Source: Arbacia lixula
Lineage: Eukaryota > Echinodermata > Echinoidea > Arbacioida > Arbaciidae
DNA: 64,000 bases
Assembly: GCA_963669155.1 (NCBI GenBank)
Contig: OZ022583.1
Coordinates: 14,459,105-14,523,104, forward strand
Direction: 5' to 3'
The translations under genes and the position numbers were made by a program. Shown here one piece after another: positions 9,890-42,773 of this stretch. The notes under the pieces are model-generated. The model did no database searches. It was not told where the DNA came from and was given only the letters and a program-made list of their open reading frames with translations. The first letter of the stretch is position 1; each line of letters opens with the position of its first letter.

Positions 9890-10820
9890 TTAGACGGGCG
9901 TCCCCTTGTTTGAAGGTCTGCAGTGAAGAAAGCGCCGCCTACTGTGGCGTCTGAACTTCCGGTCACAGATGCAACTATCTCCCCGGGCGTTTGAACAGAC
10001 TTCGAGTACAGGGAAAAAGGATAAAAATAGTAATACGTGCTAGCCTAGATTTAGAGATATATCAACGAAATATATATAGATACTTCAAATTTGATCTCTG
10101 TGAAGAGACACATACTTTCCAAGATGCCTTTAAAATGATATATTCCGATTATATAAATATATATCAAACATTAACTACGGAAATGATGATGTGAGGAATC
10201 TGCGTTTCTATACCTGCTCATGAAATGTTTCTCAAACGTAAAATATATTTTTGCAAAAGAAAACAATATTTCATATAGCCTTGAGAGTAGTGCAGAAGAC
10301 CGGTCCAATGGGCTTGTATCCATCATTGTAAAAAAAAAAAGTGTTTTCCCTATGCACATGGTAAAATAATGAAATTTTTCACATTCCATGACATTTTAAT
10401 CAAATCAATCTGAAAGACTTGATATTTTGTATCTTGAGCCAAAACGGTTGAAATGCAAGCTATGATTTATAAGAGCTCTTTGATAGGATAGGTTGAGCTG
10501 TTGCTTCCTTTTCTTGATATCTAGATATAAGCCAGCGCATAAGTGTATGCATGTAGAATATTTCGAATTTCAATAGAAGTAAAGAATAACGTCGGATGAC
10601 TTTTGCAGTGATTTATTATGAGGATTGACTCACATTTGAAGCGGCCCCTCTTAACCATGGGCTCGCTGCCGTACGCCATGTCTTCCAGGAGATCAGCCTG
10701 CTCCGGGGATCGCTTCTCCAGCATCTCAAACAGCTCCGCATCCTCCTCGTCCTCCATCTCCATGGCAACCACAGATGCCACGAAAACCGCCATCGCGAGT
10801 ACAATGTACAAGGCCTTCAT
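9890..10820 (-). CDS. Peptide A: prepropeptide with basic four-Cys C-terminal peptide
   Basis: Two coding exons: 10634-10820 (62 codons plus 1 nt, donor gtgagt) and 9890-9999 (acceptor cgaag, stop TAA at 9890-9892), giving 98 residues. Residues 1-19 are a signal peptide (MKALYIVLAMAVFVASVVA). An acidic propeptide follows to Lys-Arg 36-37, then an acidic spacer ending YGSEPMV, then Lys-Arg 57-58. The predicted mature peptide is 40 residues starting GRFK, with net charge about +10 and Cys at 64, 72, 74 and 89 (C-x7-C-x-C-x14-C). The first loop contains Arg-Gly-Asp (CSNARGDSC). Layout and charge suggest a secreted host-defence or signalling peptide; this is inference, and I do not recognise the family. 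The splice phase rebuilds Phe just before the first Cys. Closest relatives in the window are peptides B and C. Confidence 0.82.
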
Positions 10821-10856
10821 GATTGTTAGTGCTCTTCCTTTGTGGGTTTTTGCAGT

Positions 10857-11806
10857 TCTTTGAATGAGTCGGGATATAAGGAAAAGAGGTCAAGATGTTT
10901 TTATCTCCACAATGTAAGCCAGTGTAACCTTCTTTTTTTTCTACACAAATGCCTACAAACGAAGATTGATTATTGTTTATTCACGAAAGGATTTTTAGAG
11001 ATGATGATGTAAAACGTCCCCAAGAAGACGGATCTTAACTGTAATAGCATTGTATTCACAGGAAGGTGACTTTGCACATGGAATTCTCATTTGGTTAATC
11101 TTAAGATATCTCCAAAGAACACGGTGATATCAGTAAACATATCATTTGAACTCAAAAGGTGGCAACTCTTTAATAGTACAGTGAAGGTATGAAAGGTTCA
11201 GTAAACCAAACTTGTCCAAGCAAACAGGGCATCAATTACAGTCAAATAATCTGTAGAGGATTATCTGTGAAGATTAGCTTTCCTAGGACTACCTGGATAA
11301 TAAATCATGACGATATTACCGAAGATTAACAACTCGATCATTCTTATCGAAGAGGTGTTGCTTTCGAGAGATTCCACTTGAAACACACATTGGGTTAACT
11401 CGCAATTGAACTGTCGAATTACCAATTATGATTATGACGTGACATATAGTCACGGAATTAGATGAAGTCCGAAAACAGCGGTTAAGTCATGTTGATAACC
11501 AAGACATAATTGAACAGGTAAACGCATTCAATGGTATACATCCGGTGTTTCAAAATTATCTTAAGAGAAATACATTATCTGTTAGCAAAATTTATTATCT
11601 GAGTTGACAATATGATTTATATAATAGCGAGCCTTTTTTTATATATATAACGGCAGTACGAGGGAGTTATACCCTGAGCTAAATACCGAAATTAAATAAC
11701 TCAAAATACAGGATGAAATATGAGCTTACCTTAGTCCTGTGTTAGATGCGTGGAAACGATCATTTAGTTCTGATTTCTAAGGCAACGCTTTGACGGCTTT
11801 TATACA
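10857..11806 (-). promoter_or_regulatory. Peptide A promoter, TATA box and likely 5' non-coding exon
   Basis: On the minus strand a TATA box (GTATAAAAGCC, about 11795-11806) is followed by a candidate 5' exon ending at 11730 with donor gtaagc. A candidate acceptor after a pyrimidine tract lies at 10858-10859, about 38 bases before the ATG at 10820. Genes B and C have the same arrangement. The start site, about 25-30 bases downstream of the TATA box, is inferred. Confidence 0.5.
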
Positions 11807-12599
11807 CTTTCTGTATGTTTTTTCCCCAACAGTTGAGGACGTCTTTAAATGTTGAAAAAAGAAAGTCAGGTTCGTTTGAAGTCATTGTCACAAAAATAAT
11901 ATTGTACGTTTTAATTACCTTAAAGACATCATCACCAAGTACTGAAAACCCATCTTCATTGTTTATTTTCGGTAGCAGTCATTTACGTAATACGGTAATT
12001 CGATTAACACTTCTCTTCCACAGCAGGGGTACTGCAATTGTTGAGATTTATTGCATCCAGTTGTGCGTAACACGTGTTTTTGGCCTTGGATGCTCAAAGC
12101 CGACGAAAGATTTGATTTTCACCTCTTCATGTGCCATTGTTACACACATCATACATCATATACATTATCATATACAGCAGCTTCTTTCTGCACTGAAGGG
12201 GTTAAGCTGTGATGTTACGCATCGACATGGATCGTTAATGTACCAGGAGCTGCGTGCTGCACGGATGGAAACACATGGCTGCGTACGTGAAAGCGCGACG
12301 GAGCGTGCGGGAGGGCTGCTGAAAAGTGGTGTATCTACCATCATCTACTGGATAACGGAGGGGGGAGCTAAGGCTTTTGCATACAGTATCGGAGGGAACA
12401 CAAAATCACGTAAGTGCGCATGCGTATATAGATATAGACACACACGCACATATACTAGTACCTCCACCCCCACTAACCGCAGAGCTCGGAAATCAGCTCC
12501 CTTTATCCGGAAACTTCGTTTTGTCAGAATTATGATTACCACCACTATTTATATTACTATACATATTACTCTTATAACTACAACACTATATTACTCTTA

Positions 12600-12825
12600 T
12601 AACTACAAGAAAGACTACTACTACTACAACTACTACTAATAATAATTCTACTCCTTCTTCTGCAACTACGGCTACTGCTTCTACTACCACTACTAGTACT
12701 ACTACTACTACTACTACGACTACTGCTTCTACGCCTACTACTACCGTAACTACTGCTACTACTACCGTAACTACTGCTACTACTACCACTACCAACACCA
12801 CTACTACTACTGTCATTAAACAAAA
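12600..12825. repeat. (ACT)n/(CTA)n trinucleotide repeat with interruptions
   Basis: Imperfect CTA/ACT repeats fill this stretch. They create artificial Ser-rich or Val-rich open frames on the minus strand, which are not genes. Confidence 0.9.
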
Positions 12826-13185
12826 TAACATCCGCATGGTCAACATCACCATCGTCAGATCCTGTAGTATTTTGACAATAGTACATAATAGTTCACTAAA
12901 GTATTTCTTCGTGATAATAATAATTTATATTCCATAAACTTCAGTGAGCCATGACTACCGCGAGGTTTCTAATGTCATGCTTTTCGGAGGGAATCGTATC
13001 GAATCGAATCTGAATGCCAACCAAAACATTAAGGTCGAGTTACGGGTATGCAATATGTCTATTGAAGCATTGCCTGCCTATCATTTGGAATTGTTTGATC
13101 CAAAATACTTATAAAGAATTGAGATGATTAATCGTATTTCCCAATTTACACAACCTAAGCTGGACAGCTTATTGACACGCAGCGT

Positions 13186-13556
13186 TTTAAAGGGCATATA
13201 CGGTACAGGGAAGGCAAAAAAGCCTTCAAAATATAATTGTTAGCAATCTTCTTGCTAATGGTCTTAAATTCATGTATTGTCTATTTTAGAAGCTTGCTGA
13301 AAGTTATTTGCCCTCAAATGATCCACATATGGAGTAATTAATGATTAATGATTAAATCATCAAAATGTTAGGGCCGAACATTTATAGGATTTGTGATTTA
13401 ATCACCAATCCAAATGTAGATCATTTGAGGGCAAATAACTTTCAGCAACCTTCTGAAATAGCCAATACATGAATTCAAGACCATTGGCAAGAAGATTGCT
13501 AACAATTACATTTTGAAGGCTTTTTTGCCTTCCCAGTACAGTATATGCCCTTTAAA
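13186..13556. mobile_element. Foldback/MITE-like element, about 140-bp inverted arms
   Basis: The element begins TTTAAAGGGCATATAC and ends with the complement, GTATATGCCCTTTAAA. The arms (about 13186-13325 and 13418-13556) are near-perfect inverted repeats around an AT-rich centre of about 90 bp. There is no coding capacity, so it would be a non-autonomous DNA element. A one-armed relative lies at 17982-18125 inside the intron of peptide gene E. Confidence 0.88.
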
Positions 13557-14291
13557 GTTGCAGGTTGAACGCTTAAACTTAAAATTGTAGCAATAATGTA
13601 AGAACAATGATATCAGTGATATTATTTATTCATTTTATTCATTTCTTGTTTTATTTAAGCAGGGTGGCCTCTTCAGTTATTAAACTGCTGTCAGTGAGGG
13701 GCCTGACACATAAAAAAAAATGCATACCAACAATACATGTAATGATAAATCAATACAAAACATGTCAACATTCTGAACAAATTCAATGGACAAGACGTAG
13801 CAGTCAAATCAACAGCTTTATACCAGGTGGTAGTAGTAGGTGTTGTAATCAGTTGTCACCACATTATGACTTTTGATTTAAACTTTTAAGGCTATCATAA
13901 TTGTGCAAATCAAACAAAAATGGCGCACAAAGCGTTTAAAGGGTATTTTCAGTTTCGAACGTTTTTATCATGATGATTTAACAATTTTGTCTTTCATAGC
14001 ATGAGATCAATTAAATTACAAATGATTTGCATGTACCAAAAACAAAAACAAAATCAGATCCCAGCAATACCCGACCGAGGTCCGTGCACTCTAAAAGAAG
14101 GTCTTTATCTGCGTCATTTGACATACATTGTTGCGGAACAATTTGCATATTTATGTATTCATGCTAGAAACCAAATATATAATACTCATCCTCCGTGAAA
14201 TTAGTTATATCATCCATAACCATTTACCGTATGTTTTAAAGAGCGATTAAGAATGCTTATCTATCTTATGCATACCGAAATTAAATGTAAA

Positions 14292-14913
14292 GCAATAAAT
14301 ACCACACCAGTTGCGGTGTTAAATTACATTTTGTTTGACCATAACTACAGGGAAACATCTTGTAATTCTGTTTGTACGCGGTAAGATATACTTCTACTCT
14401 TTCCTTGCTTTAGCTGTTAACTGTTTGAAATTATCGGCTAACTATTCGCCATTGCAATATTAAATATATATTGCTGTATATAGCACAACAAACGTACGTG
14501 TGTAAAGTCATGTCCGAAACAAAATTTACTTGTTACACGCAATGTCTGTTATCATCGATGCTTTCGGAAAAAAGTAAATAATCACAGGTCAAATTAAGTG
14601 CCTTGTTCATTTTATAAGATTAATGTTGTTTCTGCATGTATATTAAAATTGGTGGATAGATCATTTGGACACATATTATAAGCTGGATTTGTGAAAAACG
14701 ACGTTCACCACGAAGATGAGTAGATCAAAGAAAACATAAGAGAAAAAACTTTCATGTCCGGCACAATTTAATTTTATTACGTTGCCATTACACCAAAGTT
14801 GTAGTAAAGCTTACGATCTGTAAGTAAATGTTTATAGGAGGTTGAACCTATTGCGAAATACGTTGGGTATATACTTTTTTTCGCAGTGAATTGGTTGGAA
14901 GTCATCTATAACC
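14292..14913 (+). promoter_or_regulatory. Peptide D promoter and 5' non-coding exon
   Basis: An AATAAATA box (14294-14301) is followed by a likely 5' exon ending at 14380 (donor gtaaga). The acceptor ttttcgcag at 14878-14886 precedes 27 bases of leader and the ATG at 14914. The same blocks are conserved in the E copy (TTTAAATA 17015-17022, donor after 17101), which supports function. Confidence 0.55.
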
Positions 14914-15386
14914 ATGAGGTTCTCCTACGTGCTAATGCTTCTGGTCATCGTTGCTATTTCTTGCGACGCATACTCTAGCGACAGTGGCGAGGCCGAGGAC
15001 GACATGATTAGCGAGACATCTCGTAAGTAAAGCAGTCATGACACATCTCTCTAAATCTTCTTTCGTGCATTACTTGTTCAAATATGCATTAAAAATAATG
15101 CATATAATAAACATGATAAAGGTATTATTGGTTAATGGTGCATCGATCGAGGTTGGGTAAGACTTCTCAATGTGATTTATTTATTATTCATGTTAGACTT
15201 TTTATTTTCTTTCATTTCGTTTGCACTCCTTTCGCCCCCCCCCCCCCCTCCTCTTCCTTACCCTCCTTCCTTATTCTCTTTCCACTTCCAGTATGTGCCA
15301 ACGATGCGGGCCTGATCTGTCTATGTGATTTACGATTTCCCGAGGGCGACTCCCGAAGGATCCTTGGGTGTAAACCCCCAGCGTAA
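14914..15386 (+). CDS. Peptide D: secreted four-Cys peptide
   Basis: Two coding exons, 14914-15022 (36 codons plus 1 nt, donor gtaagt) and 15292-15386 (acceptor cttccag, stop TAA), give 67 residues. A signal peptide (MRFSYVLMLLVIVAISCDA) leads into a short acidic segment (GEAEDDMISETS) with no Lys-Arg site. The C-terminal module has Cys at 38, 46, 48 and 63, the same C-x7-C-x-C-x14-C spacing as peptides A-C. It also shares the CxCD start of the third segment and the RR before the last Cys. The phase-1 intron sits one residue before the first Cys, as in A, B, C and E. The peptide is much less basic than A-C, so its role may differ. The intron has a long poly-C/pyrimidine tract before the acceptor. 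ATTAAA near 15493 may be the polyadenylation signal. Confidence 0.82.
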
Positions 15387-17014
15387 ACATCTAAACTCAA
15401 CCCGGCCTGAAATCCCAGTGTTCCAAAATGTGACGTACTTGATCACATTTAAGGCTAAACATTGTGATTCAGAGCAATACTTGATATAGATTATTAAAGT
15501 AATCTAAATGTTGAGTCATCTCCGATCGTATACATCAAGTTCTTTTTTCGTAGTCAAGATGTGCAAAGACGAAAAAAAACTAGAGAGAGAGAAATAGGAA
15601 AGAGTTGCATGGGTGTGTGGAGAAAAGTGGACAGGAAAAACTATATTCAACTATGTTGTGTGCCACGTGTGATTTGTCACAGGTAAAACACATGTAGGAA
15701 CATTAAATCGGGTACACAAAGGGTAAAAGAGAGCAAGAAAGAGAAAGACGCATTAATCTAAATGTATGAGAGGGATAGGGAGAGATGGAGGGAGAGAGAG
15801 AGAGAGAGAGAAAGACACACACACACAACACACACACACAAACACACACACATACATATACACACAAACACAAACATTCTGGTCATATGTAGAATTTTTT
15901 TGCACAATTGAAACGTGATTTTTTTTTTACAAATTATGAACACTGACTACATACTTTTTCAGTCACTCTCCTTTATCTATGTTACATATATATAAATAAC
16001 ATTAATTATCGTGTTTACTCCTTTCTTAATTGTTTTGATTCAATTCAACATTTTCGACATTTATTTGGTAAAATCTGCGGGTAAAATATATACGACATTC
16101 AGTGCCAGGATGTTCTTTGTAAGCCGAGGCTTTTGATAAATAAAAACATCCTTTACAAACGAAGCGTTTCATTGTACCATTCATGTTTAAAACATAAGAT
16201 AACATGATAACAACTTTCTTATAAATACGTATTTAGAAACAAGCAAAAACCTATACCAGATTATGATTTGTTTATTTCTTCTTGCCGTGTTTAAATTGAA
16301 TACAAAATTACTAAGTAATGAGTTTACCTTAAAATGTAAATCATATTCATTCATTTTTCAAATTAAAATGTATTTTGCTACAAATTCCCCTAACGTAATT
16401 GGATATTTCACACTCTGATTGATCACAGTTTTGATAATTAAAAGTCTGTTTTTTCTTTCCATGACCATACGCTCCAGAGCTAGGATTTAATTCTGTGCGT
16501 GCCTAGAACACATAAACATGTCATAGAAGTATACCAGCCGTTTATATACCAAATTAAATGCTTTGATATTATTTTGTTTAAACCATGCAACGTGCTTAAG
16601 TGACGCATTAAGCGTTTAAATGGAGAGTTCTGTTTCGAGCATTACTATCATGATGATATAATCATATATCGTTGTTAGCATGAGATCAGTTTGATTACAT
16701 TTAATGAGCATGTATCAGAATACAACCAAGTCTAAGCCTTGCTCAAGTGAGATCCATGCACTCATAGAATATGGTCTTTATAAAATGTGTTGTTTTGTCG
16801 AATAGCTCATGGTACTGTCGCGAGGTCGGTGATTTACGCCGTCATGTGACAAACGTTGGTGTGAAACGGTTGGCCTATTTTTGCTAGCAACCAAATATAT
16901 GATACTCATCCTCCGTAAAAATGTATGATATTAACCAAAACCACTTACCGTATGTTGTTAAGAGCGATCAGGAACGCTAATCCATCTCATACATACGTCA
17001 ATTAAATGTAAAGC
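15387..17014. other. Region between peptide genes D and E
   Basis: Contains the D 3' UTR, a GA then CA microsatellite (15791-15875), AT-rich sequence, and from about 16585 the second copy of the duplicated promoter unit. No other gene was found. Confidence 0.6.
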
Positions 17015-17571
17015 TTTAAATACCACACTACTCACAGTGTTGAATCACATTATGTTTTATCATAACTAGAGGGACACAACTTGCAATTCTGTTTGAACGC
17101 GGTAAGTTATACCTGTACTCTTTCGTTGCTGTAGCTTAACTGTTTGCAATTATCTAAATCTAGATTACCTCAATATTTGTCAGTACAATGGTGAATATAT
17201 ATTTCTGTTTATAGCGGTATATAAGTAAAAAAAAAATAATAAACCATCACATGTCAAATTACGTGCCATTTTTCCATTTTATGAAATAAATTTATTTTGT
17301 TTCTTTATGTAAGCATTTTTAAATTGGTGGGAAGATCATATGGACCCAATTAATCAGATAATTCTTTGACGTTGGGCGTTTTAAAACGGATCAACGAATT
17401 CAAAAGAGAATAACTATCACACCCGGCCAAGTTCAAGTTTATTACGTTGCCATTACACCATAGTTGGTATAATGCTTACGATCCGTAATCATGTCTACAA
17501 GAGGTAAACCTAATACTTAATACGTTGGCTGCATGTTATTTCTCACAGTGAACTGGAAGTTATTGACAACC
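17015..17571 (+). promoter_or_regulatory. Peptide E promoter and 5' non-coding exon
   Basis: A TTTAAATA box (17015-17022) precedes a leader exon ending at 17101 with donor gtaagt. The acceptor tttctcacag ends at 17548, and the ATG follows at 17572. Sequence and order match the D copy. Confidence 0.55.
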
Positions 17572-18423
17572 ATGAAGTGCTTCTACTTGTTAATGTTCCT
17601 GGTCATCGTTGCTGTTTCTTGCGACGCTAGTGGAGGGGCCGAGGATGACATGATTAGAGAGACATCTAGTAAGTATATCAGTCATGACAGATTTTGGTTA
17701 TGTCACTACTGATGCATTATGGGATTTGCGTGCATTACTTGTGCAAGTACATGTAATTTATAATGGTGCATGCCGAACTAATCAGTTCACATCATCATAA
17801 CATACCAAAACACAAGATAACGATTGTGTGATTTTTAATAATCCCAATGTAACATGCTTATTAAATAATCACTTTTATCAGTTGAATCAATCACAAGAAA
17901 AACAAAGCATATTGAAAGAATTAGTGGTTATAATAATACATGTAGCCTCTATGTTGGAAAGTGTTAAAACGTAAAACAATACTACTGTACTGGGAAGAAA
18001 AAAACTTCAAAAGATGATCGTGAGCAATCTCCTTGCCAATGGTCTTAAATCCATGTATTATCCATTTTAGAAACTTGCTGAAAGTTACTTGCACTCAAAT
18101 GACCCAAATTTGGAGTAATTAGTGAATTCTTGAGCGGAATTTGTTTTATTCTCCCTCGGTATACAGAGCTGGTGTAAGATTTCTGAATAGTGATGTAATT
18201 ATCACTAATGTTGATATTTTCGTTTTATTTCATTTCATTTGCACCCCTTCCTCTGCCAACCACCCCCCCCCCCCCTCACACACACACACACCATCCCCAC
18301 CTACTTCCTTCCTCTATTCCTCTTCCAGAGTGTTCCAATAACGCGGGCCTGATCTGTCGATGTGATCTACGATTTCCCGAGGGCGACTCCCGTAGGATCC
18401 TTGGGTGTGATCCCCCAGCGTGA
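17572..18423 (+). CDS. Peptide E: secreted four-Cys peptide, paralogue of D
   Basis: Coding exons 17572-17668 (32 codons plus 1 nt, donor gtaagt) and 18329-18423 (acceptor cttccag, stop TGA) give 63 residues. The signal peptide is MKCFYLLMFLVIVAVSCDA; the acidic segment is GGAEDDMIRETS. The Cys module has the same spacing as D and shares the stretch DLRFPEGDSRRILGC. Differences from D cluster in the first loop and the C-terminal residues (CDPPA against CKPPA). The intron is 660 bp against 269 bp in D, partly because an inverted-repeat arm (17982-18125) is inserted. ATTAAA near 18514 may be the polyadenylation signal. Function is unknown. Confidence 0.82.
17982..18125 (+). mobile_element. One-armed copy of the 13186-13556 element
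   Basis: This stretch matches the left arm of the foldback element, with shared blocks such as CCAATGGTCTTAAAT and CTTGCTGAAAGTTA. It lies in the intron of peptide gene E and is absent from the D intron, so it arrived after the D/E duplication or was lost from D. Confidence 0.75.
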
Positions 18424-18636
18424 ATGTCTTAACTCAACCCAGCCTGCAATCCCGGATGTGACGTACTTGATCACATACATTCAAGGCTAAACAAGTCAAT
18501 ACTTGATTTTAATTATTAAAGATATTTAAATTTTGAGTCGTTTCTGATTGTATACATAAAGGATTCTTTTACAGTTGTGTTTCACTCAGGTTTGAGTCGT
18601 AATGAAGATTGGCAAAGACGAGACTACTAGCATGAG

Positions 18637-18640
<4 letters not shown>

Positions 18641-18687
<47 letters not shown>
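18641..18687. repeat. (TA)n microsatellite
   Basis: Pure TA repeat of about 47 bp downstream of peptide gene E. Confidence 0.95.
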
Positions 18688-18690
<3 letters not shown>

Positions 18691-19001
18691 GTAAACAAAG
18701 AAATAAACCGGTATTCATTCATTATTTAGAGAGTAACATAGCTGTGTACAGAAATGTGGACGGAGAAAAAATAGAGGTTTACCGATATTGTCTATCGCGC
18801 CAGTGTCGGGCGCTCCCAAAGAGAATCCCCGCTGTGATCACTGCTGCTTCTCTGCCACCTTAGTTTAGAAATAGTTTTCTTGACAATGTGGTCAAATGAC
18901 GTCACATTTCGGTACTCTATGACAAGCATCTATATGCCGTGATCCAGTTTCAATGGATCATGGATCTATCATGGATGACTGATAGACTTCCTTTGATCTA
19001 T

Positions 19002-19034
19002 CATGATCACCGCCTCATAGAGGCGGTGATCATG
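19002..19034. repeat. Perfect 15-bp-arm hairpin
   Basis: CATGATCACCGCCTC, the loop ATA, and the exact complement. It sits among looser TGATCTATCATG repeats. Confidence 0.95.
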
Positions 19035-19105
19035 AGATTCAGGTGTTTTAAGCAGTACGCTGTAGATCTATTTAGGCCATGCCTCCATTTGAATAACAAA
19101 TGAAA

Positions 19106-19185
19106 ATCTGGTTTGAGAAGTATGTCAATCGTTTAGCCTTCGCTGTGATTTCATAGCTGATCTTAATACACAAACTGTGAGTTAG
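19106..19185 (+). repeat. Dispersed repeat fragment (shared with 46994-47080)
   Basis: Shares blocks with 46994-47080: ATATGTCAA/GTATGTCAA, CTTCGCTG and CATAGCTGATCTT, then ACACTGTGAG or a close match. Confidence 0.7.
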
Positions 19186-19782
19186 TTTGGGGGCAAACGA
19201 AGGGAAATTTTGCTAAAATTGTAGAAAGAATTTGGTCCGCAACTTTTGCGGACACCTCCGGACACGAAATTGAGGATGGTTCCATGGAGGGTAAAACACT
19301 CAATAAACGATTTACAAGATTTTGTGTAAAGGAATATGATTAATCCTGTTTAAATAAAACTGAATAAATAAATAAATAAATAAATAGATAAATACATAAA
19401 TAACCAATGTACGATATGGAAGCATTTCTCTGACATGTTTTCTGCATTATCACAAAAACAAAAAACAATATGATTTGAGATTCACAAAATCGTATCATTA
19501 TAAGTCATACTACTGCACATGTAATTAAGTATACGATGTGGTTATAAAATCTTCTGTTCGTGCAAAATATATAATCCTCAAAATGCGTCCCAAATCTGTC
19601 TTGCCTGTTTGGTGGCGGCAGTGACTGGATCAAAGAGCTAAACGCGTCAAATATTCTATTGTGTTAGCAATGAACACGACTGGTCTAGGAATAAATTACT
19701 CTTTGTGCTGACTCCATTTCTGACACCTCCCTGATTGAATTAAATATAGGGGAGACCCGGGATAATAAATCGTGACGCAATA

Positions 19783-20165
19783 GTACATTCACCTGTATTT
19801 CGTGATTCAGTTTCAATGGATTGAACGCACTCTGAATCTATTAGTTGTTGCTACTCGGACAAACCTCGGACAAGTTTTGGGGTAACCATTAGTAACGAAT
19901 TGTTCGAAAGACGTGAATAATATTTGCATACATAACGAAAATGGTCTATTGTAAGATTTTGAGAAAATGCACATTTTCGAAAAAAATTGTACCCAGCATA
20001 TGGGAGAGCACCTCGCACATGGTGTCACAATATTGAAAGTTTAAATTAAAATAATTTTCTTTTCCTTTGACTGATTTTCGTCAAACCTTCATTAATATGT
20101 TTTTTTTTCATGTGTCTACTTTTATTGAAACCAAAATAATTTCAGAGTGAAGTATCCCTAAAAAA
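19783..20165 (+). mobile_element. Dispersed repeat joined to a MITE end
   Basis: The left part (19783-19950) belongs to a family with other copies at 21365-21452, 48549-48612, 48939-49112 and 51290-51468; the common core is CGTGATTCAGTTTCAATGG. The right part (about 19960-20165) resembles the right half of the inverted-repeat element at 39717-40258, including GGGAGAGCACCT against GGGTGAGCACCT and the closing AGTGAAGTATCCCT. Confidence 0.7.
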
Positions 20166-20573
20166 AATTTTTCAGTCACTCTCCTTTCTCTATGTGACAC
20201 TCATTCATGAATCAAACTAATTACTGTGTTTTGACTTGTTTTCACTGGGAGGACATATCAATGATCAATATGGTATCAAGGGATATACAAAAGTTATCAA
20301 TTTCTTTTTAATTTCAAATCACCCGCAAGCTGACGTGCATAACGATCTTTTTGTTGTAAATATCAGATCATGAAATGAAGTGATTATTCTGTAGATTTTT
20401 TTTCATCATAAAGGGGTCATTATTCCGTGGATAGTACCACCATCTCTTCCAGGTGGCTGTACTGTTTTTGTTTTTGTTACGCTTCCTTTGGATTCTGGAA
20501 GTCGTAGTGAAGGGTCGTTCCGTATGTAGGTCGTAGGCAGGAGGTCGGGAGGAATAAAGAGAGAAATCAATAG

Positions 20574-20665
20574 ACTGCAGCGGCAGGTTACTGCGGCGGC
20601 AAGCTACTGCGGCGGCTAGTGCTGCGGCAGTCTACGGCGGCACGCTATTGCGGCAGCGGTAGGTC
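20574..20665. repeat. CGG-rich minisatellite, period about 16 bp
   Basis: Around six imperfect units of CTGCGGCGGCAAGCTA form a GC-rich island in AT-rich DNA. No coding signal was found. Confidence 0.75.
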
Positions 20666-20683
20666 GAGAGAAGAAAAAAGGGT

Positions 20684-20900
20684 GGAGACAAAGTAGATTG
20701 TAAGTTGGAAAAAGACCACGAGAATAGAGTTGAAAGAGGGAAAATGGAGAGATAGATTGAGAGAGAGTGAGAGAGAGAGAGTGAGATAGAGAGCGAAAGG
20801 TGGTGAAAGTGAGTAAGAGAGAAGTTAAAGGGGTTGAGATAAAGTAGACTGTAAATTGTAAAGAGGCGACGAGAAGTGAGTTAAAAGGGAGAAAATAGGA
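20684..20900. repeat. Purine-rich direct duplication
   Basis: The block GAGACAAAGTAGATTGTAA near 20684 recurs near 20836 as GAGATAAAGTAGACTGTAA; both are followed by similar GAGAA- and GGGAAAAT-rich sequence. Confidence 0.65.
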
Positions 20901-21364
20901 AGCTTCAACATACTACATTTCAGGGACTTGCCTAAATGGTCACATGTATTAATAGTCATTTCAAATAAGGGGACGAAAGAAAAAAATTGGGAATGAAAAT
21001 CTCAAAAAGAAGGACAAAGTGGGGGATAAAACAGAAGAAGGTGGGGAAAAAACATTGCAAAAGGAATGAAGTAACGACCCTACCCATCCCAGGATTCGAA
21101 TCGGAATCGCGCCTTCTTACAAACAGCGTTCACAAATTCATCCACAAATCTTTCCATTCACTTCACACTTAATGCACAGCAGGGGATAGAATGATTTATA
21201 AATCGATATTCAAGCTGAAATTTCATCATGATCCCGAAATCTGATTACAAAATGGAGACAACGCTCCCGAAAGCTAATAGATTTAACTACTACATACTAC
21301 ACTTTCATAATAAAAGATTCAAACAAAAGTGAGATACAGCTCATTAACTGCCTGCCAACGTGTT

Positions 21365-21452
21365 ATTACATTCACCCGAATTTCGTGATTCAGTTGCAAT
21401 GAATGGAACGCACTCTACATCTACTCAGACATACCTCGGACAAGCTTTGGGG
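21365..21452 (+). repeat. Fragment of the GTGATTCAG dispersed repeat
   Basis: TTACATTCACC, TTTCGTGATTCAGTT and CCTCGGACAAGCTTTGGGG match the longer copies at 19783 and 48939, with an internal deletion. Confidence 0.75.
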
Positions 21453-21481
21453 CTGAGAGAGCAAGTTGAGGGAGAGAAAAT

Positions 21482-21483
<2 letters not shown>

Positions 21484-21531
<48 letters not shown>

Positions 21532-21651
21532 GGGGGCGGTACGGGTGTTAAAAGAAAGAAGTTACAGCAGAGAGAGAACCCCACGGGAAATTCAAATGAA
21601 TGCTAGTTTTTCTCGGTGTTCCCTCCCTCCTATTTCATAATTTCCCATTAA

Positions 21652-21689
<38 letters not shown>
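21484..21689. repeat. (GA)n and (CA)n microsatellites
   Basis: GA repeat at 21484-21529 and CA repeat at 21652-21689. The CT-rich sequence at 21765-21790 adds a third short tract. Confidence 0.95.
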
Positions 21690-21695
<6 letters not shown>

Positions 21696-22366
21696 ACACT
21701 CGATCATACCTTCTCTGTAACTCTCTCTTCCACTCTCATTCTTTCTAGCGACATTTCATTTTCACTGTTTCTCTCTCTCTCTCTCTCCCTTGTTCTATTT
21801 GCTGTCCTTTGCCATTTACCCTGTCTCCTTTCATACTGATAGACCGCAACTGCAAACAACACAAGTGTGTTTAACAGGATATTAACTTTAGAATGCAATT
21901 TTATTTGAAGTTTTATTCACATGACTGAAAGGGCATGTCATAGCCAATATTTTTTCACGCATAAGAGAAATATAAAGAACTGAAATCCATGTTGTGACCA
22001 AGCATTGCCAGTCAAAATGAGGCAGAAAGGTAAAGAGGTCCAAGGTACAAAATCTGTCCTGCAGAAAAGAGAAAAAGTGAGAAACATGATTATTTTTGAG
22101 GGTGAAATATGAAGATTGCACTGGGTCTCAGATGAGAAATGTACATTTGCTCATACATTCTCATTTTTTTTTTACTCAAGCTTTATAAATAAATGATAAC
22201 TACTCAAATAAGTTACTAACCAAAATAGTGAGAACTGAAATGATCAGCAATTAATAAGAACTAACATATTAATATTTATACGACCTAACATTTTACATTT
22301 AAATTGTAATTCATTAACTGATGATTTTTTAACTGAGCTTAGAACATTTTGTAAGGGCGTCCCATT

Positions 22367-23227
22367 CCCGGGGGGGTCACTCTCCACATAGCCTGCTACG
22401 CACCCGCGTCCAGAAAAAGCGTCGAAAAGGGTCCCGTTTCAGGCACTCCGGCGTCGTCGACGTCTTTGGCAAAAAGGGTTGCATTTCAGCACCATTCGCT
22501 GGTAAATCGCCGTTTAGGGTAGCCTTTTCTCACTCTTCACGCCGTTTAGGGTTGCTAATTTGGTTATGAAGATTACGCCGTTTAGGGGTGCAAATTCAAG
22601 TAGATCTACGCCATTTAGGGTTGCAAATTTGGGCGAATTTGGGGGAGACCCGGGAGCAGACCTAAGCCATAAACACCATGAAAGGCGTGATAGGGGATAC
22701 AAAATAATCCTCGCACACGCCGGCCAGCGCAGCACTTATGAGAGTTACCCCCGTACAGTCCTAGCTAGTCTCTTACACCCGGCTCTATACTAGGCAGCAC
22801 GCGTTACCTATACCACACGCCCACAGGTCGGATAGGATGCTATGCTATATTATATTGCTAATACAACTGTTCCGGGCCTGTTTGAAGCGACTATATGCTT
22901 GGCTGCAAGGCTGCAAATACCCTGCGCGATTTGCGCGGTATTTTCCGTGCCTTATGGAATTTATACCTGTTGTATTTAACATCAATTTAACATCAGTCAT
23001 CAGTATGGTATCAAATTAATCGATTTCAATGTTCACGCCATTTAGGGTATCAAATTAGGGGATTTCCCTGTTCACGCCACTTAGGGTGGCTTTTCTCATG
23101 GGTTACGCCCCCGTTACGCCATTTAGGGTTGCAAATTTAGGTAATGTAGTTACGCCATTTAGGGTGCATTTCTGAGGTTGTCGGACACGGGTGGGTAGCA
23201 GGCCATGTGGAGAGTGACCCCCCCGGG
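22367..23227. mobile_element. Complete 861-bp non-autonomous DNA transposon
   Basis: The ends are inverted repeats of about 38 bp, CCCGGGGGGGTCACTCTCC... on the left and its complement on the right, differing at two positions in the first 38. The element is flanked by a perfect 8-bp direct repeat, GTCCCATT (22359-22366 and 23228-23235), which fits a target-site duplication. Inside, the motif CGCC[GA][TC]TTAGGG recurs about eight times, all in the same direction, four near each end. There is no transposase, so it must have moved with help in trans. An 8-bp duplication is seen in hAT-like and some other superfamilies; the superfamily is left open. Confidence 0.9.
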
Positions 23228-23507
23228 GTCCCATTACGTCCGAAATCAAACATTTACAGAAAACATTTCAGAAAAACGTTCTATGATGCATCGCGCAGCC
23301 ACATTCTGATTTCGTTTGCCGTCAAGTCCGCTGCCGGGCTAATGATAAACTATACGAGACCGGAAACGGAGCTGCAAAAATCCGGATGACGCTGTAAGGT
23401 GCATTATAAGGCGACTTTCCCCCTATATGCGGATTTCGTTTATTTTCCTTTACCTGTCTTTGGTATTGCGCTGCATCGGCAGAGCTCACGAGAGGGCGGG
23501 CTGCAAT

Positions 23508-24581
23508 CTAAACGGGTGTTCCCATGTTCTTGGGGACACAGTTCACGAACCGTCTTCTGTTGCTCTTGCGGAACTTGCGGTCACAGACGCAGTTGTCTCC
23601 GCGCGCGTTCAGGCAGTCTGTGGAATGGTTTCATGACAGAAAATACAAAGCAAGATGAGTTAAGAATGGGAAAAAAATAATTCAGAAATTGTCATTCCAA
23701 TTTTCTGAACTTCATAAATTTCCATTTGGGGCAAATATGAGCCTCCGATTTGGTTTGCATTGAATAATATCGCTTTATTGAATACAAACCCTTGAGTTAA
23801 ATACTGAAGGTGGTGTGCTCATGAAGAATAGGATCGTAGCACAGAACCGATCCCATAAGTCTTAGTGGATTTTAGTCTGAAATTTGTGACCTGCTGTGTG
23901 TATCATTCAACAAGATTACAGATATTTCGCCTTCAAATACATCATAGTATATTTAATTGTACCACATGTGTTGAGCAGACACATATTGATGATAGTACGT
24001 TTCGAATGTTTACGGTAACAAAAAAAATCTCTGCATTCATGGCAGAATTGTTTAAGACATTTTTTTCATATTAACAACGTAAACAATGATATTGATATAA
24101 ATTCTAAATCAATAACGCTGATCCCTTGAAAAGACTCAAAACTGTATTTATTATCTTTTGTTATAATAGAATACCGAATAGTGAAGCAATATTTTGAGCA
24201 TGTTGTGAGGACAAATGGTCCTAAAATGTGACTCTTATCGAAAGTGCCCGGCACTAGCCCGTTAGACAATGTCGGACAAGTGAGTTTCTCACTTTGGAAC
24301 CAGCAACCTACATAACAATAGATATGACGAGACCACCTCAGTTGTCTATTGTTGAAATTTCCAATGCTTGAAAAATAGTTATACGTATGTGACAAAAACT
24401 CACGCTTGAAGCGCCCTCTCTTGACCATGGGCTCACTGCCGTATGCGAGCTCCTCCAGAAAGTCGTCATCCATCGATCTCTTCTCGAGAAGGTCAAAGAA
24501 GTCTGTGTCCTCCTCCTCCTCGAAGGCGGCGACGGAGGCGACGATGACGGCAACGGCGAGGAAGACATAGAAGGCCTTCAT
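23508..24581 (-). CDS. Peptide B: prepropeptide with basic four-Cys C-terminal peptide
   Basis: Coding exons 24404-24581 (59 codons plus 1 nt, donor gtgagt) and 23508-23617 (acceptor ttccacag, stop TAG) give 95 residues. The signal peptide is MKAFYVFLAVAVIVASVAA. An acidic stretch (FEEEEDTDFFDLLE) ends at Lys-Arg, then an acidic spacer ending YGSEPMV ends at a second Lys-Arg. The mature peptide is about 40 residues, starts GRFK, has net charge about +9, and has Cys spacing C-x7-C-x-C-x14-C. The first loop carries Arg-Gly-Asp (CLNARGDNC). The tail MGTPV matches the KGTPV tail of peptide A, so A and B are the closest pair. An in-frame upstream Met at 24671 precedes the leader acceptor; the ATG at 24581 begins the clear signal peptide and is chosen. 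Function is unknown; a secreted defence or signalling role is inferred. Confidence 0.84.
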
Positions 24582-25423
24582 GGTTGGTTGGTTGGATGGT
24601 TGGTTGATGAAGTGTCTAAAAATATAGAAGCATGTAAGATTAATCAAAGTCATATACAAATTACAAGACAATAAAGTTCGCTTCTTTTGTTAAAACTATT
24701 GAGACATTCTAGAAACATGAGAAAGCACTGGATGAACTGGTGTTCACATTGACATCACTAATTACGAACGAACAGGGGAGAAAACCAAATAGCGTGATAT
24801 CCAGGCATTTGAATTTTCTGATCCAAACTGAAAGTAAGTGTCTAGTACTCTAAGACTATTCGTCTTTTCTCAGTCGAGAACTATTAGTCTACTGCAGACA
24901 GACCCATTTATTGGATAGCTTTGTTTTTTTTTTTAAATGCCATACATCCTAGATGTCTGGTTACGATGTGCTGAATGACTTCGCAATTTTAAGTACAACG
25001 ATACAAACGTCGTCATGATAGGAAAGACAGATGCGAGACACACTGATGCATTAGTTCAATCAGTACAGAATTGACGGCGTAACCGTAATATGAAAAAAGC
25101 CCACTTAATTGTCGCCTTAAAAGTGCTTATGCATGTCCGGAGTAGCAATGTCTATTAACTCTTTCGTTGTCATACTCCATAATTCCCTGTGGGAATAATG
25201 GGTACTACCGGGGCAAATATGCCTCAATAGCTCATGAGGTGTTAATGTTTTAACGCCACATTTCGTCTGGCGTACGAGGTTTCAACTCTCTCCAGAGGCA
25301 CTATGTCAACAATGTAAGGCACAATGTGAAATGATACTTACAGTCAAGATCAGAAGAAGAAGTGTCAGAGGAATCCTTCTCAGGTTGTGATGACCATCTC
25401 CTCTCTCTCTAGTCCTTTTATAG
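24582..25423 (-). promoter_or_regulatory. Peptide B promoter, TATA box and 5' non-coding exon
   Basis: On the minus strand CTATAAAAGG lies at 25414-25423. A likely leader exon ends at 25342 with a strong donor (gtaagtatc). The acceptor atatttttag, about 24615-24624, precedes a leader with TTGG/AACC repeats and the ATG. Confidence 0.6.
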
Positions 25424-26593
25424 GTTTCGCTCAGGTCATCTCTTTGCACAATTATCCTCACACCCTTTTCATTAGCCAATAGAAGTCAAAGGCAGAAGGA
25501 ACGAAATGATAGAAGCAAAAAGAAGAAGATCTGTCATCAAAAGTTTATTCATTATTGCTACCGCAGCGGGAACTCCCACATAGGACGAAGGCCGCCGTGT
25601 CATCACTTCTTATTGGGAACTAATTCATCAGACACCGCAAAACGGAAGCCGATTTCTGCTTCATTAAATAATTTATATTGTTCATTCGTTTCATACCATG
25701 TGCATATAGACCGTGTATAACATTTTTTTTTTTTAAAGAGGATACTTTCAAAAATGCAGTTGGTCCATTTTCATCGTTTTATTTTCTGGCACACCGAGTG
25801 TGAAATGACTATTACTATTTTTTCCAACTTTTTCTGAAACTGACATGTGTGTCCATGAGTCATCTCCTTGATTCGATCTGGTTTAGTAAATTCAAGACGT
25901 AGACTCTTCAGAACAGGAGATGAAATTGTACTTTGTTTATATATCTTCATTTATTCTTAACCGTTAGCAGTGCGATGCAGAGTAAAAGTATGAACGGAAA
26001 GGTAAAGTGTTATTAAAGGAAAAGGTACAAAACTGATATTGAAGTAAATCTAGTTAAAGAAAAATGTTTATAATCGGGATGATATATCGTGTTGTGGTTT
26101 TGGCATGTATTTTGTTGTTTCAAACAGTTTTAATTGCTTTCTATAATATATGATACATCACATAATTATTCTCCATCTGTTCATTATATTCATTCATTAG
26201 TCGATTTACGCCGCCTCGCTTTCGATATGCCTGTTCTTTCCATTAATATTCAATTTATATTCACATTTAGGGAGAGATATATATGATATTGTCACAATCA
26301 GTTTCCGTGGAAAAGAAAGGCGAAACACGTTATGGTCGAAGGGAATGGTACGCTCATTAGCTATGCGTGTAACATGAGCGTAACAAAAATTGGAATATAT
26401 TCCACACAAAAAATGTGGGGTGGTGGAACCTTTTTTAAAATCTGAGAATATGGATAGATAACAAAAACAGCTAGTGACATAGATATGTAAATATAGCACA
26501 TCTATTGGGATCAGTATCATGGTAGCTGCGGGTTGTTCTTGTTTTTCTTCAAAACATGTGAGGGAGCGCCAGAGGGAAATATAAAAGGCACAA

Positions 26594-27203
<610 letters not shown>

Positions 27204-27526
27204 GAGACAGAAGGTGGTGAGGCGAGAGGTCGATATGAGTTTGAGCAAGATATTTCTTTGAAAGGTTCTGCATCACATATTATATCATGCCACATCTGTT
27301 GTGGGTTTTCTTTTGGTCATCTGGCCCCATCGATGACTCACAATACATCTGGAGTGTGATGTAGGACGTTGGTCATCAGGTCTAATGATGGCATTATATT
27401 AGTATGGCTTACTTATTTTATTTTGTTTATACCGGTCATTTGCCCACACATACCAGTTTCTGTCATCATGTCCTACTTACATGCCTCTCCCCACCAAATA
27501 ACCCCGCTCAATTCCTCCCCCACCCC

Positions 27527-27530
<4 letters not shown>

Positions 27531-27605
<75 letters not shown>

Positions 27606-27695
27606 CGTCTCTGTCTGTCTGTCTCCGTTTCACTCTCTCTGTCCCCTCTCTGCCTTTCTCCACCCCTATCTCTCTCTCTCTCTCTCTCTCTCTCT
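27531..27695. repeat. (CT)n microsatellite
   Basis: CT repeat with a CTGT-rich interruption at 27600-27670. Confidence 0.95.
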
Positions 27696-27740
27696 AACAC
27701 TCACGTCTAAGACATACATTATGCTTAGAGAAGACAGTCA

Positions 27741-28212
27741 TTTACCTGTCATGATGAGAAGCTCCCTCTTTCTCTCAAGAAACAGATTTTCAACCAATGC
27801 ATCATACCTGTGCTCTCTTATGGAGCAGAAACATGGACCACAACTAAGAGACTGGAGAGAAAATTTAGAGTAACTGAAAGGGCTATGGAAAGAATTATGA
27901 TTACAAAGAGGGACAAAGTTAGAAACCAGGATTTGAGAAAGAGGACCAAAGTACGGGACTTAGTACAGAAAATTAAATCAAAGAAATGGAGGTGGGCTAG
28001 TCATCTGGCCAGGAAGAAAGATGATAGATGGATAAATTAACCATCTGGCCCCCAAGGGCTAACACCAGAAGAAGAGGCAGGCAAAGTAGGAGGTGGATTG
28101 ACGATATTAGAGAATATGGTAGTATGACATGGAAACGAACGGCACAAGATAGATCAAAATGGAAAAATGATGAGGAGGCCTTCCTTCAGCAGTGGAGAGA
28201 AAAAGGTTAGCG
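27741..28212 (+). pseudogene. Non-LTR retrotransposon remnant (3' end of reverse-transcriptase ORF)
   Basis: The frame reads QIFNQCIIPVLSYGAETW, the typical end of the reverse-transcriptase domain of endonuclease-type LINEs. It continues into KWRWASHLARKKDDRW and, after a frame change near 28028-28040, RRGRQSRRWIDDI and DRSKWKNDEEAF. This order matches the C-terminal region seen in many animal LINE ORF2 proteins. The upstream part is missing (5' truncated), and at least one frame break leaves it inactive. Clade is not assigned. Confidence 0.85.
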
Positions 28213-28877
28213 ATAGAGATAGAGATAGTCATTCTTTAAATTCATTTTATTGTTTACCGTTGGGAAGCTTCTTTTCAACACACTTCCCTGTCCAAGAAAA
28301 AGGGAGAACAAAACACAAATTAAGACTCGATTTTCGACGACACATATAGGCTCAGTCACCTGAATGCGTGATTATTAATCATGATTATGTAGTTTGGCGG
28401 TCGACTGTACACGCCGTGACTTCAGACGACTGAGCCGAGGTTTTCTGTGTGATCGATGATCGTCTTCGTGGAAGACTTGTCTTTCGTGGTCCTACCTCAT
28501 ATTGATTAGCTCTTTGTTCTCCTTCGTTTTGACAAGGAGTGAAAACATGCAATATGCTGCAAATCAACTTTCCAAAGGCACCCACATTAAATGTCAGTCA
28601 ATATCTAATTCAAAGCGAGACATTGATCATGCTGATATTAAACGCTACAGACAAGATAAGCAACACAAATACAAAAAGCAAAAATTGTTACCGACACATG
28701 TTACCGTTTGAAAAAAAGTTGTATTCTTTACTGTAATTCTTTACAGAGTTTATGTTCTTGTTCTTGGTGGTGAATTGGGCATGATAAATGCATTGCGCTC
28801 ACCCCTACCGTGCCCTTGTACATAGACACATCATTCGATATCATATTATCTCTTGCCATCTCCCTTCTTTTCTGCTA

Positions 28878-29205
28878 AACACACACACGCACACACATAC
28901 ACACACACATACACATATACACGCATACACACACACACACACACACACATACACACACACACGTGCGCGTGCGTACACATAGTCCCCCACATACACACCA
29001 CACAATGACACATTCAGGCAACTCACACAAAATATGCATGTACACAAACATAGACGCTCACACCCATCACTACATCCTTCCCTATCTCTATAATACTATA
29101 TTCAAGTACATATCTTGCTTTATCTCTCACACACATTCCTATATCCCATCCTCCTTCTCTCCCCCTCCATCTCTCTCTCTCTCTGTCTCTCTCTCTCTCT
29201 CTCTT
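28878..29205. repeat. CA-rich then CT-rich simple repeats
   Basis: Imperfect CA tracts at 28878-28970 and CT tracts at 29165-29205 with intervening low-complexity sequence. No gene. Confidence 0.9.
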
Positions 29206-29952
29206 TTTTATCGACCTTCTCAGTTACCACCCCTTCCGGTAAACCGACATCAGAGGAAAAATCACAATGCAAACAAGGTTTGTGGAACCGATCAGATAAG
29301 TGATTATTAAAAAATGGTACAAAATTACGTCATATTTAGAAAATCTCCATGGTGTGGGTTCATGATGTAATGTCAAAATTGAGCCATAGTATGTCGTCTT
29401 GATGTTGTGGTATCTGCTGATTGTTTATCTAATGCTGCCCGTATGCCTCTGTATATACCTGTATGTAGTGAAGAAACAGGCAGGGTGAAATCCGGTTAAC
29501 AATTCATAAACGCATCATAAAACTAGGTCAAGTTCAGTGCGACATCACTTTAATCGTCATTGAATTTCCAATCCTCTGAATTTTCTGATTTTCGTACAAC
29601 CCGAGATGTATAAACCATGATTTCATTTGTATGAGTTCTTTCGATCGCTTAGAGCAACACCCCCCCCCCCTTCCCCTCAAACAGACACATGTTTTAGATT
29701 TCCTTATGGTCCATCCTTTCTCCTAATCTGATAATTACTGCGTCTACGCCATGTTCAATTTGTTTTCGAAATACACAAAAGCCTAAATGGTTCACGTCTT
29801 ACGAAAGTCTAATATTCTAGCTCATTTCAATAGATTTGAAGTTTCAGTTTACATGTAATATGTGCAATCTAACCCTGAACCTAACCCGTACGTACCTCAC
29901 CTTAGTTAGTGTTGATGTGATAGATTGGTGATCGATAGAAGGTCAAATAGAT

Positions 29953-30846
29953 TTAAGATGTGGTAGCCTCCGTTTCCTTGGGCATGGCTGCCTTGGAGTT
30001 GCCCATGTTGGGCACGCAGCTCACGTAGCGCCGCCTGTTGGCGTTCCTGTACCGTCTATCGCAGATGCACTGGTCTCCGAAGCTATTGGCACAGACTGTA
30101 CAGTGGCGATAAATGAATAATCGATTGAATGGGAAGTTTGATCAATTGATCAATTGATTGAGAGTTTGATTGATCAATTGCTTCTTGCAATTATTTGTAG
30201 TCCATTGCCTCCATAAAACATGCTCTTTATTTTAGACTACTAGTGTTGTGGTTTTCTCCCTGTTTTTGTAAGTATTGTGTGTTATTTCTCGTAAGGAATA
30301 ATAATAGAAGAACGAAAACGACATCAATATGAAATAAAGAAACGAATATACATTACGAAGAAAGATCAAAGACGAATAGAAGAATGAAATAAAATTAACA
30401 AATTAAGGAGATAAAACAAGAACGTGAATAGAAAGGAGTATGAGAAATGAGGAAATTTCTTTTTTGAATACATTTTATTCCACGGAAACCGGGGCCCCAT
30501 CCTATAAAGACTTGCGATTGAGCTGACTCGATCGTAAGTCCAATTCCCTATTTCTATTCTACGGAGTTACGATTGATATCAATCTGATTCATGATGCTTT
30601 CAATCGGAATTAGCTATATTAACAAGACAGGACCCCGACCTAACTTAAACATGAATCAAGTTCAGTGGGCTTACACTTGAAGCGACCCCGCTTAACCATC
30701 GGCTCGCTGCCGTACACGACCTGCTCCAGCTCTTCCACATCCGGTGTTCGTTTCTCCAGCATCTCGAACAGCTCGACATCGTCGTCGTATGCAGCAACGG
30801 CGGCGACGAAGACGACGAGGGCGATGAACACGACGAAGCTCCTCAT
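29953..30846 (-). CDS. Peptide C: prepropeptide with basic four-Cys peptide and longer tail
   Basis: Coding exons 30675-30846 (57 codons plus 1 nt, donor gtaagc) and 29953-30095 (acceptor ctgtacag, stop TAA) give 104 residues. The signal peptide is MRSFVVFIALVVFVAAVAA. The acidic propeptide (YDDDVELFEMLE) ends at Lys-Arg; the spacer ending YGSEPMV ends at a second Lys-Arg. The mature region starts GRFK and keeps C-x7-C-x-C-x14-C, with CANSFGDQC as first loop: the Arg of the RGD found in A and B is replaced by Phe. After the last Cys it has a 20-residue tail (SKAAMPKETEATTS at the end), about ten residues longer than in A or B. The basic RRR run before the fourth Cys is conserved. Function unknown. 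Confidence 0.84.
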
Positions 30847-31260
30847 GGTTGGTCTTCAGAGATACACGTTCCCAAACAGAAATGATGGATATATAAACAC
30901 TTATAAGGCTCCATTACAAAATAAGAAAGGATTCTCTCTTTGTCTATTTTCACCTAAACTCTTGCATCCGTGGTGTCACCATCTTCACAAGTAGTTTTCA
31001 CACGGTATCCGTGATATCTGTCATAACTATTGTGTTAAAGTTTGATAAAGTAAATCGCGTTTATTCAATAAAATATTGGTGAGAGCACAAGCAAACTCAG
31101 ATACAAACAAATCTTATCATGGTTATTAAAACAATTCAACTAAATTAAAACCGAAATTATAATAATTAGAATGGTAGTACGTACCCTTTTGAAGAGATGT
31201 TTATTGAGTAACAGTAAAATCCTGTTCTTATTTTACATCTCTCGAACACGTCCTTATATA
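30847..31260 (-). promoter_or_regulatory. Peptide C promoter, TATA box and 5' non-coding exon
   Basis: TATATAAGGA (minus strand) at 31251-31260. A candidate leader exon ends at 31185 with donor gtacgt. An acceptor (ctctgaag) lies about 8 bases before the ATG. This parallels genes A and B. Confidence 0.5.
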
Positions 31261-42523: not shown

Positions 42524-42567
<44 letters not shown>

Positions 42568-42737
42568 AAGAGAGAGAGAAGAATAAATTCCTACTTAATC
42601 TCCAGCTTCAAACTAACCAACATAAAAAACAGAGGAGACAAAACGGATATAGCCTGACTGACAGACATATGAAAAGTGTGTGATAAAAGGAGGGAACGAG
42701 AGAGAGAGATAGAAAGAGAGAGAGAAGGGGAGGGAGA

Positions 42738-42773
<36 letters not shown>

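Follow-up and report, generated by a model that had tools for sequence, protein, structure and literature searches.

Architecture of the five genes in the window

A 64,000-nucleotide stretch of the genome of the sea urchin Arbacia lixula (termed the window; positions 14459105-14523104 of contig OZ022583.1, here C8, in assembly GCA_963669155.1 of 607 Mb and 590 contigs) was analyzed for a group of five genes, A to E, that are predicted to encode short secreted peptides with four cysteines. The genes occupy positions 9890-30846 of the window in the order A (-), D (+), E (+), B (-) and C (-), and each was modelled with two coding exons. The models are predictions from the sequence and the signal peptides were judged by eye. 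One precursor plan was common to all five, in which exon 1 encodes a signal-like N terminus followed by an acidic segment, and exon 2 encodes a module of the form C-x7-C-x-C-x14-C followed by a short tail. In every case the two exons are separated by a GT-AG intron in phase 1 that splits the codon immediately before the first cysteine (Cys1), its length being 634 bases in A, 786 in B, 579 in C, 269 in D and 660 in gene E. An Asp follows the CxC motif in all five, and the last cysteine is preceded by an Arg run that reads RRR in A-C and RR in D and E. The plan, the position of the intron and these shared residues had all been proposed in an earlier, sequence-only reading, and they were borne out when the five models were read.

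In genes A, B and C, all on the minus strand, exon 1 additionally encodes two KR sites and ends with GSEPMVKRGRFK, followed by the initial base of the codon that the intron splits. Exon 1 of gene A lies at 10634-10820, with a signal-like start, an acidic prosegment and KR sites in the contexts EKR/S and MVKR/GRFK, and exon 2, with the four-Cys module, lies at 9890-9999. The equivalent exons were located at 24404-24581 and 23508-23617 in gene B, and at 30675-30846 and 29953-30095 in gene C, where the module has a longer tail. Genes D (exon 1, 14914-15022; exon 2, 15292-15386) and E (exon 1, 17572-17668; exon 2, 18329-18423) are on the plus strand, and their signal-like start and acidic segment are joined to the four-Cys module without a dibasic site.

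Evidence for common descent

The C-x7-C-x-C-x14-C pattern was found five times in the six reading frames of the window, compared with a mean of 0.04 and a maximum of one in 100 dinucleotide shuffles, and a stricter pattern including the common N, G, D, RR and P residues was found five times in the window and never in 100 shuffles. A profile built from A and B only retrieved C (expectation value, or E-value, 1.1e-12), D (9.9e-5) and gene E (8.7e-4) as its next best matches in the window. D scored 19.9 bits and E 16.9 bits, whereas the highest score reached in 20 shuffled windows was 14.8 bits. The reverse profile, built from D and E, was weaker (C, 0.0047; A, 0.014; B, 0.13). The nine-residue GSEPMVKRG at the cleavage site gave five exact-pattern matches in 607 Mb, namely A, B, C and the genes F and G described below, while the control gave none. 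On these sequence comparisons the gene family is real and A-E share a common descent, as had been suggested.

Genes D and E were found to be a true tandem duplication, with four aligned blocks of 69-76% identity, two of them containing the exons, and a coding sequence that is 87% identical. The coding sequence is thus more strongly conserved than the duplicated DNA around it, which suggests that both genes are functional. The detectable DNA likeness among A, B and C was confined to exon 1 (E-values up to 1e-5). Repeated local duplication, which had been proposed from repeats dispersed between the members, is for this reason limited to the D/E pair. Nonsynonymous (dN) and synonymous (dS) divergence, calculated with no significance test, were 0.11 and 0.27 for D/E over 63 codons, 0.36 and 1.46 for A/C, and 0.32 and 1.41 for B/C; for A/B, dN was 0.22 and dS was not computable. 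In all three pairs among A-C, the pre-pro region showed a lower dN (0.19-0.29) than the Cys module (0.26-0.43).

Family members elsewhere in the genome

The family as a whole was found to comprise 10 clear members and one probable member at three chromosomal loci, on contigs C8, C4 and C12, these counts from the genome search being lower bounds. The existence of genes F-K elsewhere in the genome means that the description of a five-gene cluster can no longer stand and that the cysteine spacing is not invariant: the exact form holds for A-E, while the genome-wide form is C-x(7,8)-C-x-C-x(12,14)-C. In the 10 kb flanking each end of the window no profile match below an E-value of 0.4 was recorded.

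Genes F and G, near 4.009 and 4.015 Mb of C4, have the same exact spacing and intron as A-E and differ from one another at two of 83 residues. They form a convergent inverted pair (F, +; G, -) at about 4008677-4015312, in which the inverted blocks around the exons and upstream are 86-90% identical and another block, lying between, is 68% identical. Approximately 19 kb from F, at about 3.9897 Mb on the plus strand, the D/E exon 1 profile gave a weak match (E-value 0.021); no matching Cys module was seen in the 10 kb examined there, and the match could be due to chance.

The remaining members lie on C12. Gene H (10.9255-10.9267 Mb) has the exact C-x7-C-x-C-x14-C spacing and was initially a weak match (E-value 0.245), but a profile naive to H recovered exon 2 (3.3e-9) and exon 1 (3.5e-5) within the 5 kb locus. 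Genes I (10.9302-10.9320 Mb) and J (10.9539-10.9566 Mb) carry C-x8-C-x-C-x14-C. Gene K (10914213 to about 10919184, +) carries C-x8-C-x-C-x12-C; its intron is 4615 bases long, and it has one additional processing site, QKR. It is regarded as a probable eleventh member only, because exon 2 came from a loose pattern, exon 1 matched with an E-value of 0.34, and K as a query finds only itself. In each of the 11 gene models the phase-1 intron falls exactly one residue ahead of Cys1, and each of the products has four cysteines downstream of the presumed signal peptide. When the 11 proteins were placed in a tree, firm support was obtained for D with E and for F with G only, and the C12 genes were weakly grouped (78/81).

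Upstream structure and neighboring features

Consensus matching placed a putative TATA box and short 5' untranslated region (UTR) exon upstream of each of the minus-strand genes, at 11730-11804 for A (TATA box at 11804, exon extending to a GTAAG donor), 25342-25422 for B (TATA box at 25422) and 31185-31260 for C (TATA box at 31260, which is the end coordinate of the sequence-only reading). In the plus-strand genes the box is TATA-like and reads TAAATACC (14296 in D, 17015 in E), and it is followed by a putative 5' UTR exon and 5' UTR intron (14296-14913 and 17015-17571, respectively) that are conserved in the D/E upstream alignment. In all five genes a GT donor lies some 75-87 bases past the upstream box, and a matching CAG acceptor precedes the ATG by 27 bases in D and 23 in E. 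This succession of box and donor, seen by consensus and aligned for the D/E pair only, suggests that each of the five genes begins with a short non-coding exon.

Between A and D, a 57-column inverted repeat of 94.7% identity (13186-13242 and 13500-13556) resembles the termini of a small mobile element. Exons belonging to a nitric oxide synthase gene were identified on the minus strand at 37292-53392, including the oxygenase (53057-53392), FAD-binding (39396-39746) and NAD-binding (37292-37786) regions. Outside the window, two neuropeptide precursors of the pedal-peptide type were present on contig C16 at 14380882-14381973 and 17266742-17267275; their tandem repeat units include FGSGGNMEPMQSGFFKR and FNEGAMEPLSSGFIKK. 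Such precursors suggest an echinoderm, and the units appear sea-urchin-like. The exact Strongylocentrotus purpuratus echinotocin pattern was absent from the genome; a looser version gave one match, which was taken to be chance because the control gave three and one.

Predicted processing and comparison with known peptides

Cleavage at the KR sites of A, B and C would release mature peptides of 40, 40 and 51 amino acids (aa), with predicted isoelectric points (pI) of 11.5, 10.9 and 9.7 and net charges of about +9.9, +8.8 and +5.7. The corresponding prosegments carry net charges of -10, -10 and -7, the segment between the two KR sites being acidic, and the precursors have pI values of 7.7, 6.6 and 6.3. 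Predicted mature peptides elsewhere in the genome are 43 aa and +4.8 for F and G, 41 aa and +5.7 for H, 34 aa and +6.8 for I, and 40 aa and +9.0 for J; that of K is 46 aa. The earlier description of A-C as processed cationic peptides, and of D and E as a divergent, unprocessed-looking branch, was thus upheld. D and E are acidic and have no dibasic site, and would have to work differently from A-C.

Searches of protein libraries yielded no credible relative. Pfam, at E-values up to 10, returned no credible match for A-E, for the modules alone or for F, H, I and J; NCBIfam returned no match for A-E; and the PDB, searched by sequence, held no credible match. A 10-member profile found nothing in the PDB at E-values up to 1, and the KASH2 entries 8V2M and 8V2U were not recovered, their presence in the searched copy not having been confirmed. 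The same profile matched myosin VI in the PDB (E-value 2.7) through positions 25-59, which represent the acidic segment, and this was dismissed as chance. Foldseek comparison of an AlphaFold model of module A (pLDDT 66.6) with the PDB gave no matches at E-values up to 10. Several sub-threshold Pfam matches were judged to be chance, because all fell under the curated cut-offs and none was common to two members. The strongest was to CfAFP, a moth antifreeze protein, on gene E (E-value 0.00016; 22.1 bits against a cut-off of 25.9), spanning residues 1-45, that is, the signal, the acidic segment and the first three cysteines; the others were GpA_ATPase on C (0.034), RXLR on D (0.19) and four matches on H and I (0.15-0.24). 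Eleven stretches from viral contigs fitted the cysteine pattern and none was a relative.

The module was also compared with two disulfide-stabilized folds. Disulfide-directed beta-hairpin (DDH) peptides, defined by disulfides I-III and II-IV across a beta-hairpin, are similar in having four cysteines and a two-strand hairpin, the latter predicted here from a weak model; in classic DDH peptides Cys2 and Cys3 lie further apart than in the present family, where a single residue separates them. The second half of an EGF-like module (C3 to C6), acting as a truncated growth-factor ligand, is a highly improbable origin. The C-terminal half of EGF is resembled by C-x(7,8)-C-x-C, by the N and G residues of the first loop and by an aromatic residue four positions after the third cysteine, and EGF modules often come after phase-1 introns, as the module does here. 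However, the two N-terminal EGF cysteines are absent, only four cysteines being present, and no EGF match was found in Pfam up to an E-value of 10 in nine of the 11 proteins (A-F, H, I and J) or in eight modules, subject to the HMMER filters. With neither six cysteines nor a Pfam EGF match, assignment as an EGF-like domain was unsupported.

The sequence-only reading had also seen no fit to the relaxin, strongylocin or centrocin patterns, and cysteine number, cysteine spacing and chain layout do differ. Strongylocins are likewise secreted, cationic and Cys-rich with a prosegment, but PMC4805251 describes six cysteines in three disulfides, compared with four cysteines in all 11 members here, and an EeStrongylocin 2 prosegment of 16 aa, compared with 33-38 aa in A-C. 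Centrocins share a conserved pre-pro region, a more variable active part and a cationic product with the present family; they were rejected since they are heterodimers, their precursor containing a heavy chain, an interchain segment and a light chain, compared with a single C-terminal four-Cys chain here (PMC4805251). The relaxin/insulin superfamily was rejected on spacing, Cx(7,8)CxCx(12,14)C differing from the A chain CCxxxCx8C and B chain Cx11C given in PMC4772807. The cysteine pattern was not found in the literature text examined, consisting of portions of PMC4805251, PMC11891777, PMC4772807, PMC13409769, PMC11595613 and PMC5656890, and literature searches on short family peptides and pattern words gave no match.

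The CHUPA and KARTESH peptides of starfish were the nearest description encountered, and were compared through their described precursor plan. According to PMC11891777, CHUPA precursors of Asterias rubens have a signal peptide, an acidic region, convertase sites and four cysteines, and CHUPA homologues are said to be confined to echinoderms; mature lengths are 35-48 aa for CHUPA and 28-30 aa for KARTESH, and both are raised in coelomic fluid after injury. The multigene family here has the same arrangement of signal peptide, acidic region, dibasic site and four-Cys mature peptide, recognized by eye in A-C and F-K, with predicted mature lengths of 34-51 aa; D and E differ in having no convertase site. 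It could be that the two are one family, with a role in the injury response and already known in kind. We place this at slightly under an even chance, and it overlaps with the explanation preferred below. The precursor plan, the echinoderm restriction and the mature length speak for it; against it, the KASH2 searches in PMC11891777 found usable homologues in A. rubens only. The earlier label of an unrecognized family is therefore only partly sustained: no relative emerged from Pfam, NCBIfam, the PDB or Foldseek, but the label is doubtful because CHUPA and KARTESH are described as having the same plan and CHUPA as having a similar length.

A possible role in defense or wound response

The best explanation of the family is that its members are secreted host-defense or wound-response peptides, a reading that we consider to stand at about an even chance. 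Most likely, A-C and F-J are processed cationic peptides of this kind, and D and E are acidic, unprocessed paralogues. The sequence itself provides the common precursor plan, the intron, the Cys module, a dN below dS and at least 10 genes at three loci. In the proposed mechanism, the signal peptide would be removed and the acidic prosegment (net -7 to -10 in A-C) would offset the cationic module in the secretory pathway, before a proprotein convertase cuts after KR to give a peptide of 34-51 residues with a net charge of about +5 to +10 (A-C and F-J). Two disulfides would brace a beta-hairpin, and the peptide would be released into the body fluid to act on microbial membranes or at wounds. In D and E the scaffold has been kept, probably for another job, of which a stable extracellular modulator would be one example.

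A signaling role has to be weighed against this, in which the four-Cys peptide would be a cytokine-, hormone- or neuropeptide-like receptor ligand and the paralogues its tissue-specific variants. Precursors of peptide hormones follow a standard plan in which a signal peptide and dibasic sites accompany a disulfide-rich peptide at the C terminus; the starfish Arnp11 precursor, for example, has an acidic spacer and six cysteines (PMC4772807). The GSEPMVKRGRF block, being conserved, could also have a function of its own. A relaxin-receptor-like seven-transmembrane (7TM) frame also lies in the window at 5608-6825, although a receptor gene in the neighborhood is weak evidence. The high net charge of A-C, a module that diverges faster than the pre-pro region, the multicopy, duplicating genes and the lack of an amidation signal in A-C all count against a signaling role, which we regard as somewhat unlikely. 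On balance, a defense peptide is favored over a hormone because of the charge balance, the basic product and, in A-C, a pre-pro region that is conserved over the module. This last trend matches that reported for the centrocins, in which the presequence is conserved and the active chains are variable (PMC4805251). The multigene, duplicating loci, seen in the D/E pair and in the inverted pair F/G, also count for the defense reading, as do the GSEPMVKRG stretch at the cleavage site and the similar plan of the injury-raised CHUPA and KARTESH peptides (PMC11891777).

The receptor-like frame is a 405-codon open frame on the plus strand, of the rhodopsin type (Pfam 7tm_1, E-value 1.2e-27), whose best solved-structure match was relaxin receptor 1 (E-value 1e-42). 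The frame may represent the final exon of a gene of the LRR/relaxin-receptor type that lies upstream of the peptide cluster.

Several observations weigh against a defense or wound role. Dibasic sites and disulfides are the same anatomy as that of secreted signaling peptides. Three members are not cationic, the net charge after the presumed signal peptide being -6.3 for D and -2.6 for E, neither with a dibasic site, and the predicted mature charge of K being -1.3. In the D/E pair the centrocin-like trend is reversed, with a dN of 0.08 in the module and 0.11 in the pre-region. Of the five genes, only B and C have NF-kB-like sites upstream, and these sites are not evidence for the role. The AlphaFold model of module A, with strands at 8-11 and 23-27, is weak at its pLDDT of 66.6. 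For the starfish, PMC11891777 states that the KASH2 peptide assayed was without effect on human fibroblasts and that its role in the animal is unknown, and that folding of synthetic CHUPA-3 did not yield well-resolved isomers.

It is also conceivable, though we think it unlikely, that the family has no homology to CHUPA, strongylocins or centrocins, and that one scaffold with an ancestral intron gave rise both to cationic effectors (A-C and F-J) and to D and E. In that event D and E, nested among the effectors, charge-reversed and unprocessed, might be stable antagonists or regulators of them.

Concluding remarks

Standard libraries cannot keep pace with the evolution of short secreted Cys-rich peptides, and the defense peptides of animals are probably under-counted. 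The present family offers a usable signature: the cysteines are spaced as C-x(7,8)-C-x-C-x(12,14)-C, a phase-1 intron lies one residue ahead of the first of them, and the prosegment is acidic and in most cases has a dibasic site at its end. This signature recognized members on other chromosomes, and the exact spacing of the window would miss I, J and K. The matched cationic and acidic paralogues are natural controls for the contribution of charge and cleavage. Finally, the signature would allow the starfish injury peptides and the family described here to be tested as one family.

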